Below are positions 15,238 to 25,219 of a DNA stretch of 64,000 nt, one piece after another. This stretch comes from Verrucomicrobiia bacterium (GTDB lineage Bacteria > Verrucomicrobiota > Verrucomicrobiia > Limisphaerales > DASXHY01), in the NCBI GenBank assembly GCA_035629175.1, contig DASPIL010000011.1, positions 1 through 64,000 of the forward strand. Reading direction: 5' to 3'. The notes below the pieces were generated by a model that made no database searches, was not told the DNA's origin, and worked only from the letters and a program-made list of their open reading frames with translations. How positions within the stretch are numbered: the first letter of the stretch is position 1; each line of letters begins with the position of its first letter. The position numbers and the translations under genes are program-made.

Positions 15238-15552
15238 TCAGTGGTTCCCGCAGCATTCGGTGGCCGGCAGCGCCGGATCCATCACAAGTTTCACCTTCGT
15301 GATCTTGACGCGGAATTCCGCCGGTCCCTTGACGAGATGCTCCCACGTGAACGCCTCAGGCCATTGCGCGGCGAATTGATAATACAGCGGCACCGGATCG
15401 TGATCGTTAAGCAGGATGAAGTGATCGCCGACGGGGAGGCCAAGCCACGTGCGAATGATCAAGCCATGCTTGATCGAGCAGGGAATCGGCCGCACATCCA
15501 TTACTTTATCAGGCCCAATGAGATTTTCCGTCGTGTTCATTTGTGAATTCAT
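15238..15552 (-). CDS. DUF2249 domain protein of the nos locus
   Basis: A small cytoplasmic protein (104 residues from 15552; an alternative start at 15540 gives 100). DVRPIPCSIKHGLI and LLNDHDPVPLYYQFAAQWPEAFTWE are the conserved parts of DUF2249, a TusA-like alpha/beta fold often encoded next to nitrogen-oxide reductases and hemerythrins. A CCGNH tail might bind metal. It is divergent from the nos operon, and the intergenic region carries two FNR/NNR-like boxes, so coregulation under oxygen limitation or nitric oxide is likely. Its molecular role is not established. Confidence 0.8.
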   Translation of the reverse strand: MNSQMNTTENLIGPDKVMDVRPIPCSIKHGLIIRTWLGLPVGDHFILLNDHDPVPLYYQFAAQWPEAFTWEHLVKGPAEFRVKITKVKLVMDPALPATECCGNH

Positions 15553-15588
15553 GTGCAGCCAAACTACGGCGGATTGATGTGCGCGGCT

Positions 15589-15602
15589 TTGACCCACATC
15601 AA
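15589..15602. promoter_or_regulatory. FNR/NNR-like box TTGAC-N4-ATCAA
   Basis: TTGAC-CCAC-ATCAA differs from the FNR/DNR consensus TTGAT-N4-ATCAA at one position. It lies in the divergent region between the DUF2249 gene and the nos operon. A class II site centred 41.5 nt upstream of transcription would start the nos transcript near 15637 and the DUF2249 transcript near 15554, either of which is plausible. Confidence 0.6.
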
Positions 15603-15683: not shown

Positions 15684-16937
15684 GTGAAGACGAAATTTAT
15701 CCTGACACTCACAGTCGCGGCGGCGGTTCTACTCGCGGCCGTTACGGGATGCGATTCCTCGAACACCACCTCGAAGACATCGCCATCCGCGAAGCAGCTT
15801 GCCTCCGCTTTGAAGCCATCGGCCGCTGCGAAACCCACACTGATGGACGTCCCCGTGCCGCCGAAGCCCGCGGTTACCGCGGAACTTCTTGAGCATGGGA
15901 AGAAACTTTACGGCCAGAACTGCCTGGCCTGCCACGGCACGAAGGGTGACGGCAACGGCGACGCCGCGGCATTTCTCCTGCCGAAGCCACGTGATTTCGT
16001 GGACGCCAATTATCGTCTGCGCACCACAGCGACAGGGAAGCTGCCGACGGATGAAGATCTCTATCGTTCGGTTTCATTCGGCATGACCGGCACTCCGATG
16101 CCTGGATGGAAACATTTCCTGAGCGAGGACGAGCGCTGGGCAGTGGTGGAATACATCAAAACATTCTCACCTAAATTCTCGGACACGACTGAAGAGCGGC
16201 AGCCGGTGGTTGCGCTGAATGCTCCGCTGGCAAAATCGGAATCGATCCTTACCGAAGGCAGGGAGCTGTACAGCAAACTCGCGTGCATCACCTGCCACGG
16301 CGATACAGGGCGCGGCGATGGTTCCTCAGCCGCGAGCCTGCTTGATGACAAGCAGATGAAGATCAAGCCGCGCGATTTGACGAAGCCGTCCGGATTCAAG
16401 GCAGGATACGCCACAAAGGAAATTGTCCGGACCATCCTCACGGGTTTCAACGGCACACCCATGCTGGGTTTTCACGGAACCATCAGCGAAGCGGATGCGT
16501 GGAAGCTCGCTTACTACGTTGAAACGATGGCCAGGCCGACCCCGCCTTCAACAACGATCGTTCGCGCTTCCCAGAATTTTCTGGAACGCGAGCAACTCGG
16601 GGAGCCTGACGTGCGCATCAAGCTGACGGAGCGCGCGTGGAAGTTCGATCCCGCTGAGATCCGCGTGAAGAAGGGGCAGATCGTGGAAATCACGTTCGAG
16701 CCAACTGACAACGGCCTGGGCGTCGGCCATGGATTCGCGATCAGCAGCTACGACGAAGCTGTGTTTCTGAACGGCGTGATGGCAGGCACGCCGAAAACGG
16801 TGAAGTTCCGCGCGGATCGCGCGGGTCAATTCACATTCTACTGCGCGACCCAGTGCTCGACTGAAAAACTCCATCCCCTGATGAACGGCACGTTCATCGT
16901 TGAAGATGGTTCCAAGAAAACCGCCTCGCTCGAATAA
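15684..16937 (+). CDS. Dihaem cytochrome c-cupredoxin fusion lipoprotein (nos cluster)
   Basis: Predicted periplasmic lipoprotein of 417 residues. The GTG at 15684 is chosen because it yields MKTKFILTLTVAAAVLLAAVTGC, with Cys in a lipobox; a TTG at 15651 is an alternative. Two class I cytochrome c domains carry CLACH (80-84) and CITCH (201-205), with distal Met candidates in TGTPMPGW and GTPMLGF. The C-terminal ~110 residues are a cupredoxin: VGHGFAIS supplies a His, and CATQCSTEKLHPLM (387-400) resembles the CuA loop of COX2/NosZ but with Cys-x3-Cys-x5-His-x2-Met, two residues longer than usual. It leads the nos operon and probably carries electrons to NosZ. Whether the cupredoxin binds one or two coppers is unknown. 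Confidence 0.85.
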   Translation: MKTKFILTLTVAAAVLLAAVTGCDSSNTTSKTSPSAKQLASALKPSAAAKPTLMDVPVPPKPAVTAELLEHGKKLYGQNCLACHGTKGDGNGDAAAFLLPKPRDFVDANYRLRTTATGKLPTDEDLYRSVSFGMTGTPMPGWKHFLSEDERWAVVEYIKTFSPKFSDTTEERQPVVALNAPLAKSESILTEGRELYSKLACITCHGDTGRGDGSSAASLLDDKQMKIKPRDLTKPSGFKAGYATKEIVRTILTGFNGTPMLGFHGTISEADAWKLAYYVETMARPTPPSTTIVRASQNFLEREQLGEPDVRIKLTERAWKFDPAEIRVKKGQIVEITFEPTDNGLGVGHGFAISSYDEAVFLNGVMAGTPKTVKFRADRAGQFTFYCATQCSTEKLHPLMNGTFIVEDGSKKTASLE

Positions 16938-16955: not shown

Positions 16956-18785
16956 ATGAAAGTTTCAATCCTCCTCCCGCTCCTCGCGCTCGCGCCGATG
17001 GCGTTCACTGGCTGCAACTCCGACACCACCGCGCGCCAGCAGAAAACCGCCGCGCAAAACGCGTCCGCCGCCCAACTCACGTATGTCGCGCCTGGCAAGC
17101 TGGACGACTATTACGCCATCCTGAGTGGCGGCCAGAGCGGAAGCGTATTTGTCTATGGCCTTCCTTCCTGCCGGTTCATCAAGGAGATACCGATCTTCGA
17201 ACCGCGTGCGGCGCTCGGATATGCCAACAATCCCGGATCCGAGACCTACAAGCGTCTCGCCGCCACGGGCCCGCTGTGGGGCGACACTCACCATCCCGTG
17301 CTCAGCCAGACCGGCGGGCGGTACGATGGCGACTGGCTTTGGATCAATGACAAGGCCAACGATCGCATTGCGAAGATTGACCTGCGCACATTCGAAGTGG
17401 CCGAGATCAAGGTTGTCCCGAACATCCAGGGTGCGCATGGCCTCGCTGCATATCTGCCCTCGTGCAAATACGTTTTCGTCAACGGCGAACTCGAAACCGA
17501 TCACGCTGGAAATTCCACCGAGGCCGAGAATTACCGTTCGCTCGTGGCGTTCCTCGATGCGCAGACGCTCGAAACCAAATTTCAGGTGAGCTTCGTGGGC
17601 AACGCGGACATCGCCAGCTCCGGCAAGGATGGGCGTTATGTGTTCGTCACGATGTACAACACCGAAAATGCCGTGTCCTCCGAAGGCATGATTGAGCGGG
17701 ATCGCGATGCCGTTGGCGCGATTGATGTGCCGCTCGCTGAAAAGGCTCTGGCTGACGGAAACTTCACAAAGATCAACGGCGTGCCGGTGATTGAATCGGA
17801 AAAAGTTCCCGGCGTGTTGACGCTGATCCCCGTGCCGAAGAATCCGCATGGCTGCAACGTCACACCCGACGGCAAATATGTTCTGGCGAGCGGCAAACTC
17901 TCACCCACGGTCACGATCATCGACACGAAGACGCTGAAGGTGATCGCCGAACCGGAAGTTGGCTTGGGGCCGCTGCACACCACGTTCGATGACCGCGGGA
18001 ACGCCTACACCTCGCTGTTCGTTGATTCCCAGATCGTGAAGTGGAATATCGCCAAGGCGATTCAGGGAGCGGACGATTACATCGTTGACCGCGTGGATGT
18101 TCATTACAACGTGGGCCACACGAAGGCGGCCGGCGCTGACACCAGCCATCCCAATGGAGACTGGCTGATTTCATTGAACAAGCTTAGCAAGGGCATGTTC
18201 CTTCCCGTGGGACCTGCGATGCCGGAATCGCAGGAACTCATCGACATTTCGGGAGACAAGATGCGCGTGGTGGCGGCCTTTCCGTCGCTGCCCGAACCCC
18301 ACGACGCCGTGATGGTTCACCGCAAAGTCCTCGAGGACAAGGTCGTTCAAACGCATCACCTGCAGGCAAATGCCGTGAAACTCGGAGAGGAGAAGGTCGT
18401 TCGCAATGGCAGCAAGGTGGATGTCTATATGACCTGCATCCGGTCGAAGTTCGTGCCGGAACAGTTTGAAGTTCACGAGGGCGACGAAGTCACGGTGCAT
18501 TTGACGAACGTGGAAACGGTTCGCGACATGACGCACGGCGTGGCGTTCTCGCGCATCGGCATCAACGTCGGCGTGGATCCCGGCCAGACCGTCGAAACCA
18601 CCTTCAAGGCGCCGAACCCCGGAACGTATTGGTATTACTGCACATGGTTCTGCTCCGCTCTGCATTTGGAAATGCGCGGACGGATGCTGGTGAAACCGCA
18701 GGGCGCCCAGCTCAACGAATATCTCGGGCCGCTCGCGAAGGAAGACAAGGCCCGCAGCGTGCAGAAGGAGAGTGCGTATGAATAA
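16956..18785 (+). CDS. nosZ: Nitrous oxide reductase, clade II (Sec type)
   Basis: A 609-residue periplasmic enzyme reducing N2O to N2. The N-terminus (MKVSILLPLLALAPMAFTGC) is a Sec/lipoprotein-like signal without twin arginines, as in clade II (atypical) NosZ. The seven CuZ histidines are visible in DTHHP (two), QGAHG, NPHGC, PLHTT, NVGHT and EPHDA, on a beta-propeller. The CuA site is complete at CTWFCSALHLEM (Cys562, Cys566, His570, Met573) in a C-terminal cupredoxin domain. It starts 18 nt after the cytochrome fusion gene and overlaps the next gene by 8 nt. All metal ligands are present, so the enzyme should be functional. Confidence 0.97.
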   Translation: MKVSILLPLLALAPMAFTGCNSDTTARQQKTAAQNASAAQLTYVAPGKLDDYYAILSGGQSGSVFVYGLPSCRFIKEIPIFEPRAALGYANNPGSETYKRLAATGPLWGDTHHPVLSQTGGRYDGDWLWINDKANDRIAKIDLRTFEVAEIKVVPNIQGAHGLAAYLPSCKYVFVNGELETDHAGNSTEAENYRSLVAFLDAQTLETKFQVSFVGNADIASSGKDGRYVFVTMYNTENAVSSEGMIERDRDAVGAIDVPLAEKALADGNFTKINGVPVIESEKVPGVLTLIPVPKNPHGCNVTPDGKYVLASGKLSPTVTIIDTKTLKVIAEPEVGLGPLHTTFDDRGNAYTSLFVDSQIVKWNIAKAIQGADDYIVDRVDVHYNVGHTKAAGADTSHPNGDWLISLNKLSKGMFLPVGPAMPESQELIDISGDKMRVVAAFPSLPEPHDAVMVHRKVLEDKVVQTHHLQANAVKLGEEKVVRNGSKVDVYMTCIRSKFVPEQFEVHEGDEVTVHLTNVETVRDMTHGVAFSRIGINVGVDPGQTVETTFKAPNPGTYWYYCTWFCSALHLEMRGRMLVKPQGAQLNEYLGPLAKEDKARSVQKESAYE

Positions 18786-19494
18786 CCGGGAACTCGTCCA
18801 GGCCAACCAAACGCCGCAGCCATCAAAGGCCGGCTGGCGCTCGCGAGTCCTCCCAATCGCGTTCACCGCCGTCGCAGCCGCGCTGCTGTTGTTCAGCCTT
18901 AAACTACCGTTGTGGCACATGCATCTCGAGGCGCCACAGTATCGGGACGAGGAAGCCCTGAACGTCGCCGTTTATCCGAACTTCTTTCGCGGCGACCTCA
19001 CGGAACTCGCGGTTCTGAACCAATACATCGGCGTCCATGTTCCTGAAACGCTCCCTCAGTTTGCATGGATGCCCGCCGCATTGATTGCGACAGCCGTGTT
19101 GGGAGTCATCGCGGCGTTCGCGGCGCGATCGATTCGCTCCCGCGCGTTGATCATCATTCCCGCAGCACTAAGCCTCGCGCTGGCGTTCGCTTCGGTGCAG
19201 GCGATGCAGCAGATCCGCGACATCGGCCATAAGCGCGACGCGAAGACTATCATGGCAGGCGTGAAGGATTTCACCCCGCCGTTCCTTGGCACCAGGAAGA
19301 TCGCGCAGTTCACGGTGACCTCGAACCTGAGCCTTGGCTCCTGGTTGATAGGCTCTGCGCTCGCACTGCAGTTCGGCGCTGCACGGTTGAGCCGCCTGCC
19401 CCGTCAGAAAAAGGCAGCAACCCCGAAGGTGAAACCGGCGATCAACCCCCCAGCTGATTCATTAGTGGCACCCGCGGCTTCCCACGTATCATGA
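18778..19494 (+). CDS. Nos-cluster membrane protein
   Basis: A 238-residue protein with about four membrane helices (near residues 24-43, 90-113, 118-138 and 178-198). The ATG at 18778 is chosen because AAGGAG lies 7 nt upstream, inside the end of nosZ. After the first helix comes HMHLEAPQYRDEEALNVAVYPN, then LTELAVLNQYIGV. This resembles a small family of membrane proteins near clade II nosZ that carry an APQYP...NHYIGM pattern; the usual His is Gln here. NosB of epsilonproteobacteria occupies the same position, but I cannot show homology. It overlaps the next gene by 4 nt. A role in electron supply or maturation is inferred from context only. Confidence 0.7.
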   Translation: MNNRELVQANQTPQPSKAGWRSRVLPIAFTAVAAALLLFSLKLPLWHMHLEAPQYRDEEALNVAVYPNFFRGDLTELAVLNQYIGVHVPETLPQFAWMPAALIATAVLGVIAAFAARSIRSRALIIIPAALSLALAFASVQAMQQIRDIGHKRDAKTIMAGVKDFTPPFLGTRKIAQFTVTSNLSLGSWLIGSALALQFGAARLSRLPRQKKAATPKVKPAINPPADSLVAPAASHVS

Positions 19495-21176
19495 AAGCCA
19501 CCCGCGTTCTCTTCATTTCTGGCCTCGTGCTGTTGCTGACGGTTTTCGTCATCGGCATTTACGTCGTGCCGAAGCTTCAATCCGGCAGCCCTGCCACGTC
19601 ACGCCAGAGCGATGCGTCACGCGTATCGCTGTCTGATGTGTATTTCGACGCGACTTACGCCACGCCGGAATACATCAAGCGGGTGAAGCTTGAGCCCTAT
19701 CTTCAGCAATGGCTCGGTCGCGCGCAGCCCTTCCTTCTCGGCGTGAACACGCACGTCGGCACCATCGCCGACCTGGACCTGCGCGGCAAAGTGGAGATTG
19801 AAGACAGCAACGGCGATCGCTACCCGTCGCTCGGAACGCCCGTGGTCCTGAGCGAACATCACAACATGTATCTTGTTGTGTTCCCCCTGCTGGACAATTC
19901 CGGTAAACCGATCTTTGCAGCCGAACGCGGACATTTCAAACTGCACGTGACGGGCGTCGGCAAGACGCCTGAACGGGTTTTCGAATGGAAACTGCCCGTC
20001 GCCGAAGCCGCACCAGCGCGCACGGTGGCGAGCACATTAATGCTGGTCCTGAGCGTTGTGGGCGCGCTGATGGTCATTCTCAGTCCGTGCGCCATTGAAC
20101 TGACGACCTACTACACGGGCATCATTGCAGGCATTGCGAGTTCCGCGGCGGCGGCCGAACAAAAGGCGGAGCGATCCGCCAGCGCAACACAGGCCGTTGC
20201 CTCTCCTGCGCCGGAGATCGCGCTGGCTGCGCATGCAGGCGCGGGTTCCGGGCGAAACTGGAAACTGACGTTGCAACAACCCGGGACTTCTGCATTGCCA
20301 TCCTCATCGCGCCCGCGCCGCATTCCGCCGGAAGTTCGCGGCCGCATCGTGCGCAACCTCATTGCGTTCGTGGCGGGCTTCACAGTCCTCTACATGGCCA
20401 GCGGTGCAACGGTGGCCATGGTTGCGACTGAACTCCTGGAAATGCAGGCGAAGCTGCAGGCGGGCGCGACCCTGGCAGACGTGTTCTGCGGAACAACTCC
20501 CGAAGCTGTCAGCACCGCGATTGCAAACGCCGCGGCCGCACCCGCCAATCCGCATGCGAATCACGGTCCAGGATTCGGCGGATGGACACGATACGCGAAC
20601 TGGCTGGGCGCTTCATTCCTCGTGTTCTTCGCGTTGAAGTCGGTGGGATTGCTGAAACGCGGCAGCCAATGCTTCGTCTGGCTGGCCAAGCTCGGACGCA
20701 AGTTCCGCACTGGAATTGCAGCGGTCGTGGGTTTGTTTTCCGCGAAACGCGCCGCGGTGATCCGCGCGCCAGCGATGAGCCTGCGCGATTCTGAAAATAT
20801 CACGCCCGCCAATTCGTTCTGCGCAGGGCTCGGCCTTTCCGTGAGCTGCCTCACCTGCATGGGCGGCGCGATTTTGTATCCCCTGCTAATTTTTGTCGGC
20901 ACATCGACATGGTATTGGGGCGCGTTGATCCTTGGCACCTATTCACTCGCGCTGGCTCTCCCGATGGCGGCGATTGCAATCGCAGTCGGCAACTGGAGCT
21001 GGCAGTTCATGCATCGTCCCTGGCTGACACGCGGCCTGCAATGGACGAGCGCAACAGTGATGATTGCGGTCGCGGTGCTGATCGTCTTCGATCGCACCCG
21101 GTTCATCAATTCCGTCGTGTTTACAATTCTATCGGCGTTCGGGACCAATCCCGAGCCGTCATTGGCGCAGATGTGA
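19491..21176 (+). CDS. CcdA/DsbD-like membrane protein of the nos cluster
   Basis: A 561-residue protein. An N-terminal helix (residues 6-27) is followed by a periplasmic domain (~30-180) with many beta strands, and then a polytopic part. ILSPCAIELTTYYTGIIAGIAS matches the Ser-Pro-Cys start of CcdA/DsbD transmembrane repeats, and NSFCAGLGLSVSCLTCMGG is the second-half counterpart. Other Cys residues occur in DVFCGTT and GSQCFVWL. A 60-residue Ala-rich linker separates the first two helix groups, longer than in ordinary CcdA. It may carry reducing equivalents or copper across the membrane for NosZ or cytochrome maturation. It shares 4 nt with the preceding gene and 1 nt with nosD, so it is firmly in the operon. 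Confidence 0.7.
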   Translation: MKATRVLFISGLVLLLTVFVIGIYVVPKLQSGSPATSRQSDASRVSLSDVYFDATYATPEYIKRVKLEPYLQQWLGRAQPFLLGVNTHVGTIADLDLRGKVEIEDSNGDRYPSLGTPVVLSEHHNMYLVVFPLLDNSGKPIFAAERGHFKLHVTGVGKTPERVFEWKLPVAEAAPARTVASTLMLVLSVVGALMVILSPCAIELTTYYTGIIAGIASSAAAAEQKAERSASATQAVASPAPEIALAAHAGAGSGRNWKLTLQQPGTSALPSSSRPRRIPPEVRGRIVRNLIAFVAGFTVLYMASGATVAMVATELLEMQAKLQAGATLADVFCGTTPEAVSTAIANAAAAPANPHANHGPGFGGWTRYANWLGASFLVFFALKSVGLLKRGSQCFVWLAKLGRKFRTGIAAVVGLFSAKRAAVIRAPAMSLRDSENITPANSFCAGLGLSVSCLTCMGGAILYPLLIFVGTSTWYWGALILGTYSLALALPMAAIAIAVGNWSWQFMHRPWLTRGLQWTSATVMIAVAVLIVFDRTRFINSVVFTILSAFGTNPEPSLAQM

Positions 21177-22543
21177 TGAACAGCAGCTCGCAATTTGAAA
21201 CCGAATCGCGTCGCTCCGACCGGCGCGTTCTCAATCACGATCACCGTCTCTGCAGTGCGGCCATCTGGTGTGCGCTTGGGCTTGCGGTGATCCTTCCCGC
21301 ACCGGCCGCCACATTCCACGCCACGGAGTCCATCGCCGCAGTTGTTTCAAAGGCCGACGATGGGGACACAATAATCGTCCACGGCCCTCGCGTCTTCAAC
21401 GAGCGCATTGTTCTCAACCACTCCATTCGCCTCGTTGGCAGCAATTCACCCACGATCGATGCGGAAGGCTTAGGAACACCGCTCACGATCGCCGCACGCA
21501 ATTGTGAAATCAGTGGACTGACAATACTCAACTCCGGCCGCGACCTGACCACGTTTGACTCGGGCATCATGATCACTGCAGCCGATGCGGTCGTGAGCCA
21601 GTGCCGCATCGAGAACGACGGGTTCGGAATTTACATCCGTGGCGTGAGTCATTGCCGCATAACGAACAATGACATCTCAGGCAGCGCCAAGGTGCCATCT
21701 GCCGCGCGCGGAAATGGAATCCACCTTTGGAAAACGCGGGGCAACGAACTGCTCAACAACACAATCCACCACAAACGCGATGGCATGTATCTGTCGTACG
21801 CGGACGCCAGCGTGATCGGCGGCAATCGCATTTACGACACGCGTTTCGGCATTCATTACATGTATTCGCATCAAAACCAGCTGCTCACGAACTCGCTCAT
21901 GCGCAATACCGTTGGCGCCACGCTGATGTTCAGCCGCGGCTCGCTCGTGCAGGGAAACCACGTTGCTGCCAATCGCCGTCACGGAATGATTTTCAAGCAG
22001 CTCGATACCTCGCGCATCGCGCACAATGTGATCGCCGGGCAGAACCGCGGATTGTTCATCCAACAGGCAACGCAGAACCGTTTTGAGGGAAACGTCATTG
22101 CGACGAATGACATCGGCGTTTATCTCAGCAACTGCTCAGAGCAGAACGTCTTTGTAGGCAACGCGTTCATCCGCAACAGCGACCAGGTCTGGCAGCCGCC
22201 GTTCGAAACCGAGCTGGGCCGGAAAGCCCCGAACGCGTTCTCCGAGAAAGGCCGTGGCAACTACTGGAGTGATTACACAGGCAGCGATCGCAATCACGAT
22301 GGCATCGGCGACACGGCGTATCATGAGACCGATGTGTTTGGATACATCGTGGATCGGAATCCCGAAGCGCGCGTTTTTGCACTGAGCCCCGCGGTCGCGC
22401 TGTTGCGCAAGGGAGAGGAACTGATGCCGTTGATGGATACAACAGGCGTGACGGATCTGGCGCCCATTTACGATCTACGGTTTATGAAACGTGATTGGGT
22501 GAACGGAGTGGCATCAGTTGGCACGAGAGACACAACGCGATGA
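21176..22543 (+). CDS. nosD: NosD copper-site assembly protein
   Basis: A 455-residue periplasmic beta-helix protein needed to build the CuZ site of NosZ. The ATG at 21176 overlaps the preceding stop (TGATG). The signal peptide lies near residues 24-45 (AAIWCALGLAVILPAPAAATF region). CASH/NosD features follow: DGDTIIVHGPRVFNERIVL, HLWKTRGNELLNNTIHHKRDGMYLSYAD, FGIHYMYSHQNQL and NYWSDYTGSDRNHDGIGDTAY. The last ~24 residues (IYDLRFMKRDWV onward) derive from a short dispersed repeat and are not part of the conserved protein. The gene overlaps nosF by 4 nt (ATGA). Confidence 0.93.
   Translation: MNSSSQFETESRRSDRRVLNHDHRLCSAAIWCALGLAVILPAPAATFHATESIAAVVSKADDGDTIIVHGPRVFNERIVLNHSIRLVGSNSPTIDAEGLGTPLTIAARNCEISGLTILNSGRDLTTFDSGIMITAADAVVSQCRIENDGFGIYIRGVSHCRITNNDISGSAKVPSAARGNGIHLWKTRGNELLNNTIHHKRDGMYLSYADASVIGGNRIYDTRFGIHYMYSHQNQLLTNSLMRNTVGATLMFSRGSLVQGNHVAANRRHGMIFKQLDTSRIAHNVIAGQNRGLFIQQATQNRFEGNVIATNDIGVYLSNCSEQNVFVGNAFIRNSDQVWQPPFETELGRKAPNAFSEKGRGNYWSDYTGSDRNHDGIGDTAYHETDVFGYIVDRNPEARVFALSPAVALLRKGEELMPLMDTTGVTDLAPIYDLRFMKRDWVNGVASVGTRDTTR
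22466..22489 (+). repeat. ATTTACGATCTACGGTTTATGAAA element at the 3' end of nosD
   Basis: This is the third copy of the element seen at two beta-helix gene starts, here on the plus strand and in frame within nosD, where it encodes IYDLRFMK. It sits after the last conserved NosD residues and extends the protein by about 24 residues. It again ends in TTTATGAAA. Confidence 0.6.
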
Positions 22544-23271
22544 CTCCTTACCTGCAGATCTCCGGGTTGACGAAGTGTTACGGCGCGAATCACGCGCTGG
22601 ATGGAATTGAGCTTAGTGTCGAAACGGGAGACGTGCTGGCTTTGCTTGGACCGAACGGCGCCGGAAAATCCACATTGTTCGGCTGTCTCCTCGGATTCAC
22701 GCGCCCGGCGCAGGGCGAACTGCGACTGAACGGAAGCGCGATCACCGCTGCTGAACGCTTGAATTTCGGATACGTGGCCGAGCGCGTGGCGGTGTATCCG
22801 CAACGGACGGTTCGAGAAAACGCGCAATTCTTTGCGGAACTCAAGGGCTATTCGGATTCCGAAGTTCAACGACAATTGACGCGAGTGGGCTTGTGCTCGG
22901 TGCAGGAGCGCCTGGCGCGCGCGCTCTCAAAAGGAATGCTTCAACGATTGGGTCTTGCCATCGCACTCTGCGGACGGCCGGAATTGCTTGTCCTCGATGA
23001 ACCGTTCAATGGCCTTGATCCAGCCTTGCTCGAAACGCTCCAGGAGATTATGCGCGAGGAGAACGAACGCGGCGCGACGCTGCTGATTTCGACGCATACA
23101 ATGTCGGCCGTTGAGCCGCTGGCAACACACGTGGCGATTCTACTGCAAGGCAGGCTGGCGAGCTCTGGAACCCTGGCGCAATTGAAGGCAGAGCATCCTG
23201 CGGCGGATTCACTCGAGGATATTTATCATCGAATCGCGCGCGCCAAACATTCGGCGGAGGTGCTGGTTTGA
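22540..23271 (+). CDS. nosF: NosF, ABC transporter ATPase of the nos system
   Basis: A 243-residue cytoplasmic ATPase that partners NosY and NosD in CuZ maturation, probably by driving sulfur or copper delivery. The start at 22540 forms an ATGA overlap with the nosD stop. Walker A is GPNGAGKST (near residue 38), the signature is LSKGMLQRLGLA and Walker B is LLVLDEPFNGLDP, followed by the switch His in STHT. Length and order match NosF of other denitrifiers. Confidence 0.93.
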   Translation: MTPYLQISGLTKCYGANHALDGIELSVETGDVLALLGPNGAGKSTLFGCLLGFTRPAQGELRLNGSAITAAERLNFGYVAERVAVYPQRTVRENAQFFAELKGYSDSEVQRQLTRVGLCSVQERLARALSKGMLQRLGLAIALCGRPELLVLDEPFNGLDPALLETLQEIMREENERGATLLISTHTMSAVEPLATHVAILLQGRLASSGTLAQLKAEHPAADSLEDIYHRIARAKHSAEVLV

Positions 23272-24278
23272 AAGCCGAGATCATCGCGAACGGCTCTGTG
23301 CACGCTGTTTCAGCAGAGCCCCATCCAGGAACACGCGGCGTCGAGCGCACTCCCGCATTGAAGCGTTGGCGCCACGCGCTGGGATTGCTGCGCCAGACAC
23401 GGATCATCGCTGCAAAAGAGTTCAGCGACCGCTTCCGCTCAGGCTGGGTCGTCGCGTGCGTGCTGGTCTGGCTCGGCGCGATCGGGTTGACCAGTTTCCT
23501 GGGGTTGATTCAAGTCGGCAGGATTGGAGTGCAGGGATACGAGCGCACCGTAATCAGCCTGCTCAACCTGGTTCAGTATCTTGTCCCGTTGCTCGGCCTG
23601 CTGCTGGGGCACGATCTGATGGTCAGCGAAAACGAGGAACGCACGTTGCGCCTGGTTCTTGCAGGCGGCGTCAGTCGTGCCCGGCTCTTGTTCGGGAAGT
23701 TCATCGGCGGCGTCCTGACGCTCGCCGTGCCGCTGGTTCTCGGCTTCGTGATTGCCGGCACAGCGATTGGATTCGCTGCCAGGGACAATGCCATTTCCCC
23801 TTTTCTGCATCTCGCGATTTCCGGCCTGATCCTCGGCGTAATCTTTCTCGGCACCGGCCTCGCGATTTCCACATTGAGCCGCACACGCGTCCAGGCGCTC
23901 GTGGCAGCGCTGCTCGTGTGGTGTTTCGTGGTGTTTGTCTTTGACCTGGTGGCGCTGGGAATCACCCTCTCAGCGCGCGCGCCCGCAGCCGCGGAGGAAA
24001 TCGACTTGCTCTGCGACACCACGCACGTGAACGCCGCGGCGGACATCCACGCCACCTTCGACAACGCGGGCGAAACCGCGCACCTTGCGGCTGTCCCCCA
24101 AAACCCGCCCTCGCTCGGCTGGCTCGCGCTTAATCCCGTTGATCTTTTTCGCGCTGTGAACCTTCCAGCGCAGCTGGGAGTGCACGTTCCTGCAACCACG
24201 ATTTTCTCAACCGTATTCCTTTGGCTTGCGCTGCCGTTCGCGCTGAGCTTCTGGAGATTCCATCGAACCGATTTATGA
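23268..24278 (+). CDS. nosY: NosY, ABC permease of the nos system
   Basis: A 336-residue membrane protein. The TTG at 23268 overlaps the nosF stop (TTGA), supporting this start, although it gives an N-terminal extension of ~45 residues before IIAAKEFSDRFRSGW, where NosY proteins usually begin. Six hydrophobic segments follow (VVACVLVWLGAIGLTSFLG; LLNLVQYLVPLLGLLLG; LTLAVPLVLGFVIAGTAIG; LHLAISGLILGVIFLGTGLAI; ALVAALLVWCFVVFVFDLVAL; a C-terminal one). ENEERTLRLVLAGGVSRARLL is the conserved cytoplasmic loop of this ABC-2 family. The unusual periplasmic loop at ~240-285 is family-typical. It overlaps the next gene by 4 nt. Confidence 0.9.
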   Translation: MKAEIIANGSVHAVSAEPHPGTRGVERTPALKRWRHALGLLRQTRIIAAKEFSDRFRSGWVVACVLVWLGAIGLTSFLGLIQVGRIGVQGYERTVISLLNLVQYLVPLLGLLLGHDLMVSENEERTLRLVLAGGVSRARLLFGKFIGGVLTLAVPLVLGFVIAGTAIGFAARDNAISPFLHLAISGLILGVIFLGTGLAISTLSRTRVQALVAALLVWCFVVFVFDLVALGITLSARAPAAAEEIDLLCDTTHVNAAADIHATFDNAGETAHLAAVPQNPPSLGWLALNPVDLFRAVNLPAQLGVHVPATTIFSTVFLWLALPFALSFWRFHRTDL

Positions 24279-25219
24279 AACCGAAAGTGATCCTGCCGAT
24301 TCTCGCCGCCGTGACGTTGTTTTCTGTTTTGAGTGTGGCGACGATTCACCGCCGCCAGCAGTCGAAGGCTGAACCTGTCGGCACCCAAACGTTTCACGTT
24401 CGCGGCCAGGTGCGCAGCGTGGATGTGGCCAACAAGGTCGTTCGCATTACGCACGAGGAGATTCCAGATTACATGCCCGCGATGACAATGCCGCTGAATG
24501 TGAAGGACGTTGGCGTGCTCGCGGGTCTCCAACCGGGTGACACGGTGATGTTCGACCTGGCTGTGACGGACGACGATTCGTGGATTGCGCGCATTGAGAA
24601 GGTGGCGGGAGACGAAGCGCAGCCAGCGCCCAAAATCCACTTCAAGGATCTCGAGATGGAGCGCGTGCAAGCCGGCGAACTGATGCCGGATTTCGAATTG
24701 GTGGATCAGGACGGAAAGAAGATTCACCTGAAAGATTTTCGCGGCAAAGCGGTGGTGCTGACGTTCATATACACGCGCTGTCCCCTGCCCAACTTCTGTC
24801 CGTTGATGTCGAAGAACCTCTCCGATCTTGAATCGCGCTTCAGCAAAGACTTTCCCGGGAAGTTTCAGCTGTTGAGCGTCAGCATGGACCCCGCGTTCGA
24901 CACCTCGGAGGTGCTAAAGAGCTACGCAGAGCGTTATGAAGCGGACACGAAGCATTGGAGCTTTGCGACTGGCACCGAGGAGCAAATCCAGTTTCTCGCG
25001 AGCCTGACGGGTTTAACCTATGAGTGGGAAAACGGGTTGATCTCACACGATCTGCGCACTGTGCTGATCGGGCCGGATGGAAGAATGGTGCAGGTCTGGA
25101 AGAGCAATGTGTGGACGCCGTATGAGGTGCATCGCTCGGTGGCCGAACTGCTTTCGCCGGGCAAGGGCAGCCTGACCGGCAAGGCAAACACCACAGCCCG
25201 CACGACGGCATCGAAGTGA
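24275..25219 (+). CDS. CusF-like domain fused to SCO1/SenC copper chaperone
   Basis: A 314-residue exported or anchored protein closing the nos operon. After an N-terminal helix (ILPILAAVTLFSVLSVAT), residues ~31-105 form a CusF/YdeI-like copper-binding beta barrel (GQVRSVDVANKVVRITHEEIPDYMPAMTMPLNV, with the Met pair of the family). A thioredoxin-fold SCO domain follows from ~125. Its metal site is Cys169-x5-Cys175 (RCPLPNFCPLMS) plus His258; classical SCO proteins have Cys-x3-Cys. The protein probably loads the CuA site of NosZ and stands in for NosL, which is absent. It starts inside nosY (ATGA overlap). Confidence 0.9.
   Translation: MKPKVILPILAAVTLFSVLSVATIHRRQQSKAEPVGTQTFHVRGQVRSVDVANKVVRITHEEIPDYMPAMTMPLNVKDVGVLAGLQPGDTVMFDLAVTDDDSWIARIEKVAGDEAQPAPKIHFKDLEMERVQAGELMPDFELVDQDGKKIHLKDFRGKAVVLTFIYTRCPLPNFCPLMSKNLSDLESRFSKDFPGKFQLLSVSMDPAFDTSEVLKSYAERYEADTKHWSFATGTEEQIQFLASLTGLTYEWENGLISHDLRTVLIGPDGRMVQVWKSNVWTPYEVHRSVAELLSPGKGSLTGKANTTARTTASK

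Follow-up and report, generated by a model that had tools for sequence, protein, structure and literature searches.

A dihaem cytochrome c-cupredoxin lipoprotein with an expanded CuA-type loop, linked to a separate lineage of NosZ in Verrucomicrobia

Analysis of a 64,000-nucleotide stretch of a Verrucomicrobiia bacterium genome (contig DASPIL010000011.1; hereafter the window) uncovered a gene, cytCup (15684..16937, + strand), which codes for a 417 aa predicted lipoprotein with the domain order cytochrome c, cytochrome c and CuA-like cupredoxin, and which lies immediately 5' of a gene for the N2O reductase NosZ. We propose that cytCup is probably a membrane-tethered haem-haem-CuA electron carrier dedicated to this neighboring NosZ. 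A more specific reading, to which we incline with less assurance, is that its cupredoxin holds a naturally occurring dinuclear CuA centre whose loop is expanded (Hx37Cx3Cx5Hx2M), and that this dihaem lipoprotein is the obligate donor of a separate lineage of lipoprotein NosZ enzymes via a CuA-to-CuA relay.

Domain architecture and conservation of cytCup

The cytCup open reading frame is complete, extending from a GTG start at 15684 to a stop codon at 16935-16937, and the same aligned residue (MKTR..) begins two of its homologs. The predicted signal peptide ends in a lipobox for signal peptidase II (VTG-C23; 15741..15752, + strand), with a small residue followed by Cys at this position in 10/10 homologs. 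Downstream, Pfam recognizes two cytochrome c domains and a Cupredoxin_1 domain (residues 309-408; 16608..16907, + strand). The haem-binding motifs C80-LA-CH84 of haem 1 (15921..15935) and C201-IT-CH205 of haem 2 (16284..16298), along with their respective candidate axial ligands Met139 (16098-16100) and Met260 (16461-16463), all on the + strand, are invariant in 10 sequences. The Pfam domains together with both CxxCH motifs bear out the dihaem cytochrome c-cupredoxin fusion that the first-pass annotation had read from this gene.

Profile and sequence searches recovered nine full-length homologs (60-69% identical), all from a single order; those with named records are Verrucomicrobia, one of them from subdivision 3. 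The haem and copper ligands are retained in all nine, including each of Cys387, Cys391, His397 and Met400, whose loss from relatives would have told against the metal site envisaged in the first-pass annotation, and the copper loop itself is conserved as C-[AS]-TQC-ST-[ED]-KLHPLM. Relative to the window copy, the homologs show dN of about 0.06-0.11 and dS >1 (NG86), indicating from the codon-level divergence that cytCup is under purifying selection; since the ligands are kept despite diverged synonymous sites, the loop is under selection rather than a product of chance or a sequencing or annotation artefact. Within the phylum the searches covered samples of 289 genomes and of 384 genomes (class), whereas beyond it the reach was coarse, viz., 84,980 species scanned once for a pair of short peptide patterns; hence, close relatives are likely to be absent elsewhere, distant ones being beyond the reach of that scan. 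Plasmid records matched only the dihaem part or NosZ/COX2, with no cytochrome-cupredoxin fusion found among them.

The N-terminal half is in itself a familiar unit: residues 65-285 match a dihaem cytochrome of known structure (6H5L chain B, E 1.4e-48), which like cytCup displays a dihaem module of about 220 residues. However, the cupredoxin is absent from 6H5L chain B and from the other dihaem matches in related genomes, and within the genomes and records searched the dihaem-CuA fusion is met only in the cytCup group. The module is widespread, and related genomes also join it to a haem domain resembling that of ethylbenzene dehydrogenase (in L008 and L010 as tested, and in L012 by sequence likeness); a further fusion joins it to subunit II of a cbb3-type oxidase.

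The predicted copper site of the cupredoxin domain

The copper loop reads C387-ATQ-C391-STEKL-H397-PL-M400 (16842..16883, + strand), exactly the Cys-x3-Cys-x5-His-x2-Met pattern given in the first-pass annotation, and is preceded by H349 in a GHGF motif (16728..16730, + strand). The latter residue, absent from the ligands named in that annotation, corresponds to the first ligand His and thus supplies the remaining CuA ligand. In an alignment of 36 CuA-type domains (10 cytCup, 14 NosZ and 12 COX2), the five side-chain CuA ligands, i.e., two His, two Cys and one Met, are the only invariant columns, with H349 conserved in 36/36. The spacing nonetheless departs from the canonical Hx34Cx3Cx3Hx2M of CuA (PMC6189053), being Hx37Cx3Cx5Hx2M in 10/10 cytCup sequences. 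In all 26 NosZ and COX2 domains of the alignment the second Cys is followed by x3 and then the His, and the difference holds in a broader set of 54 domains with the pattern C-x3-C-x(3-5)-H-x2-M from the fetched loci, wherein every cytCup (10) has x5 and every NosZ and COX2 (44) has x3. The claim that the loop is two residues longer than that of CuA is accordingly upheld in all the compared domains.

A structural model of the cupredoxin domain based on the 36-domain alignment (pLDDT 86.3, pTM 0.79) adopts the COX2/NosZ-like cupredoxin fold: the highest-ranking PDB matches are without exception NosZ, aligned through the CuA domain (rmsd about 1.5 Å, about 95 columns), and Thermus CuA variants come next. 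In this model, C387 is positioned directly after one strand and M400 before the next, as in CuA. The condition set in the first-pass annotation, that the four loop ligands be able to meet, is answered at the level of topology, which fits, and of conservation. The block with the long half of the copper loop is of moderate confidence (pLDDT about 77), and the model is not independent of the alignment, because the ligands were already in register in the alignment on which it was built. A full-length AlphaFold model built with 5 close homologs was poor (pLDDT 54) and was set aside. A tree of CuA-type domains resolves cytCup (99/97), NosZ (91/87) and COX2 (97/94) as three separate groups, so the cytCup domain is no recent copy of the CuA domain of the neighboring NosZ; a recent duplication of that kind was considered and rejected.

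Linkage with a separate NosZ lineage

In the window, cytCup is separated from nosZ (16956..18785, + strand) by 18 bp. The same three-domain protein was found beside nosZ in other genomes, as the first-pass annotation had suggested might be sought, with cytCup immediately 5' of nosZ in 9/9 loci where the contig extends far enough. This lineage of NosZ (at least 76% identity) is present in 11/320 genomes of the order, 10 of which code for cytCup. The eleventh (G513) has a contig that begins inside nosZ, and in one of the ten (G028) a contig break falls between cytCup and nosZ. Conversely, cytCup is absent from 12/12 examined Verrucomicrobia genomes with other NosZ enzymes, namely G347, G562 and G005 from the order and nine more from elsewhere in the class. 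Such strict genetic linkage is what one would expect of a dedicated NosZ donor, and it is this linkage that suggests an interaction of cytCup with NosZ.

The window NosZ is complete, with a canonical CuA loop (18639-18674) and all seven CuZ histidines when aligned to the enzyme of M. nauticus (PMC11573801). It scores 597.7 and 532.5 against 625, falling under both curated NosZ cut-offs. A tree of 18 NosZ sequences groups it with seven others as a single long-branched clade (100/100), which is sister to clade I plus the haloarchaeal enzymes and apart from clade II. A lipobox is present in NosZ as well as in cytCup; this NosZ is thus a Sec-dependent lipoprotein by prediction, though its sequence is closer to the TAT-type NosZ of clade I and haloarchaea.

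cytCup is the first gene of a conserved block, all on the + strand, in which nosZ is followed by genes for a 240 aa protein with hydrophobic stretches (18772..19494) and a 561 aa protein (19491..21176), neither assigned to a family, and then by nosD (21239..22543), a nosF-like ABC ATPase (22495..23271), a nosY-like ABC permease (23268..24278) and a CusF-Sco1 fusion (24221..25219) with a likely role in copper delivery. The 240 aa gene is conserved with cytCup-nosZ. The 561 aa protein, which has no Pfam match, is kept in the linked nos loci; its hydrophobic segments include two conserved motifs, LSPC and CLTC, reminiscent of thiol transporters of the CcdA/DsbD type. Genes for NosR, NosX or NosC-like proteins were not recognized in the operon, and NosL was not found in the genome; hence, copper would be delivered by something other than NosL, and the CusF-Sco1 fusion that closes the operon may replace it. 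Just upstream of cytCup, on the opposite strand, is a DUF2249 gene (15238-15597); two further genomes (L048 and L072) have a relative of it close to their nos block.

Proposed electron transfer route

The above observations would fit a route in which the alternative complex III, or a different cytochrome c reductase, takes electrons from menaquinol and passes them to both haems of cytCup; a dinuclear CuA-type centre in its C-terminal cupredoxin would receive them next and hand them on to the lipoprotein NosZ, first to its CuA and finally to CuZ. The copper centre would use the normal CuA ligand set, i.e., H349, C387, C391, H397, M400 and the backbone C=O of T389. With the stretch from C391 to H397 longer by two residues and that from H349 to C387 longer by three, the exposed loop would take on a different shape, which might serve docking or adjust the potential. 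The first-pass annotation had pictured cytCup as a self-contained electron wire, which now seems unlikely: no quinol-oxidizing part was recognized in cytCup or the nos operon, so an upstream cytochrome c reductase would still be needed, and genes for the alternative complex III (ActD, E 4.5e-66; an NrfD-like subunit; multihaem and monohaem subunits) are present in the genome. The genome also codes for a quinol NO reductase (L121:607-2949), and a search for a copper nitrite reductase returned no match besides NosZ itself, with NirK, the only nitrite reductase looked for, not found; the organism might therefore be a partial denitrifier that further reduces N2O derived from NO.

Type 1 copper sites usually have one Cys and an H-x4-M arrangement. 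The leading alternative for the centre in cytCup is a mononuclear one, with C387 or C391, H349, H397 and M400 binding a single copper (type 1, green or red) since the longer loop would no longer bracket two, even as the protein continued to carry electrons to NosZ. The loop length is indeed unlike that of every compared CuA, the domain has weak sequence similarity to nitrosocyanin and the cupredoxins of nitrite reductases, and type 1 loops swapped into a CuA scaffold yield mononuclear sites (PMC7480511). A literature search also found no natural CuA with Cys-x5-His, a weak negative given that motif notation varies, and dinuclear binding is therefore not assured. However, both Cys, the x3 spacing between them and the H-x2-M are all invariant in cytCup, setting it apart from the single-Cys, H-x4-M pattern seen, for example, in the CIPHEMNGM loop of the halocyanin-like protein whose gene adjoins haloarchaeal nosZ. 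Further, the nitrosocyanin matches end before the second Cys, His and Met of the loop, and the NCBIfam nitrosocyanin model (TIGR03096) yields 33.4 bits, far short of its cut-off of 142.85. On balance, a mononuclear site appears unlikely, and the dinuclear CuA is favored.

The remaining alternatives concern the role of the protein rather than its metal. A role of the cupredoxin in copper handling during NosZ assembly, as a metallochaperone or a redox partner in thiol reduction with the haems serving the same task, could be entertained given the lack of NosL in the genome and the proposed accessory role of PmoD, itself a CuA-type protein (PMC6189053). This is improbable because a CusF-Sco1 fusion is already available in the operon, two haems with invariant CxxCH motifs and candidate axial Met better fit electron transfer, and the fold and ligands of the cupredoxin are those of an electron-transfer centre. 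We give slightly less credence still to cytCup merely sharing the operon with nosZ while serving another acceptor or process, such as an oxidase, the quinol NO reductase or some other reaction. The fusions of the dihaem relatives to the ethylbenzene-dehydrogenase-like haem domain and the cbb3-type oxidase subunit II show this module in other redox settings, but cytCup is tightly linked with one NosZ lineage and lacking in genomes with other NosZ enzymes, and CuA oxidases occur in most of the related genomes, nearly all of which are without cytCup.

Comparison with known systems

The haem-haem-CuA carrier proposed here has several partial counterparts. The closest for the copper site is the CuA domain of NosZ (clade I, e.g., 1FWX, 1QNI, 6RL0), which shares its fold, five side-chain ligands, Cx3C and Hx2M, but differs in having x3 rather than x5 and H-x34-C rather than H-x37-C, in belonging to a separate clade from cytCup (99/97), and in being carried by a CuZ propeller instead of a dihaem cytochrome. 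Subunit II of the caa3-type cytochrome c oxidase likewise has haem c and CuA in one chain, whereas in cytCup the domain order is reversed, there are two haems and a lipid anchor replaces the membrane helices; the loop is x3 in COX2 as against x5 in cytCup. In the cytochrome c-NosZ of Wolinella succinogenes, a haem c feeds the CuA of NosZ, with the haem domain inside NosZ itself, in contrast to cytCup, which brings a second CuA-type domain in a separate protein. The Wolinella enzyme is credited to Simon 2004 in PMC11102522.

Cupredoxin genes adjoining nosZ are also known from Opitutus terrae and Luteitalea, wherein SCO and azurin genes are found upstream of a clade II nosZ, with either copper delivery or electron transfer being proposed as their role (PMC13122619); this is reminiscent of cytCup in placing a cupredoxin gene beside a verrucomicrobial nosZ, although the latter protein has a CuA-type domain with two haems in place of azurin and accompanies a different NosZ lineage. 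PmoD offers another natural CuA centre in a non-canonical arrangement, built between two monomers and without the loop motif (PMC6189053), whereas cytCup has all its ligands in one chain. In Haloferax larsenii a gene for a type 1 halocyanin-like lipoprotein lies directly 5' of nosZ (L116:272-793) in a parallel arrangement; its copper loop is of type 1 and unrelated, and the haloarchaeal protein, considered as a relative of cytCup, was rejected on that ground.

Implications

Because electron transfer is tuned by their length, CuA loops have been a subject of engineering (PMC7480511). An x5 loop that nature has conserved together with every ligand would show what evolution permits in this regard and furnish a ready protein for measurement. 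Our findings also suggest a route for feeding NosZ in those Verrucomicrobia in which the nos operon has no recognizable NosR, NosX, NosC or NosL. The NosZ lineage itself represents a third branch of the propeller-type enzyme beside clades I and II, with relevance to N2O sinks, and some uncultured Verrucomicrobia probably possess a dedicated electron feeder for the destruction of this greenhouse gas.
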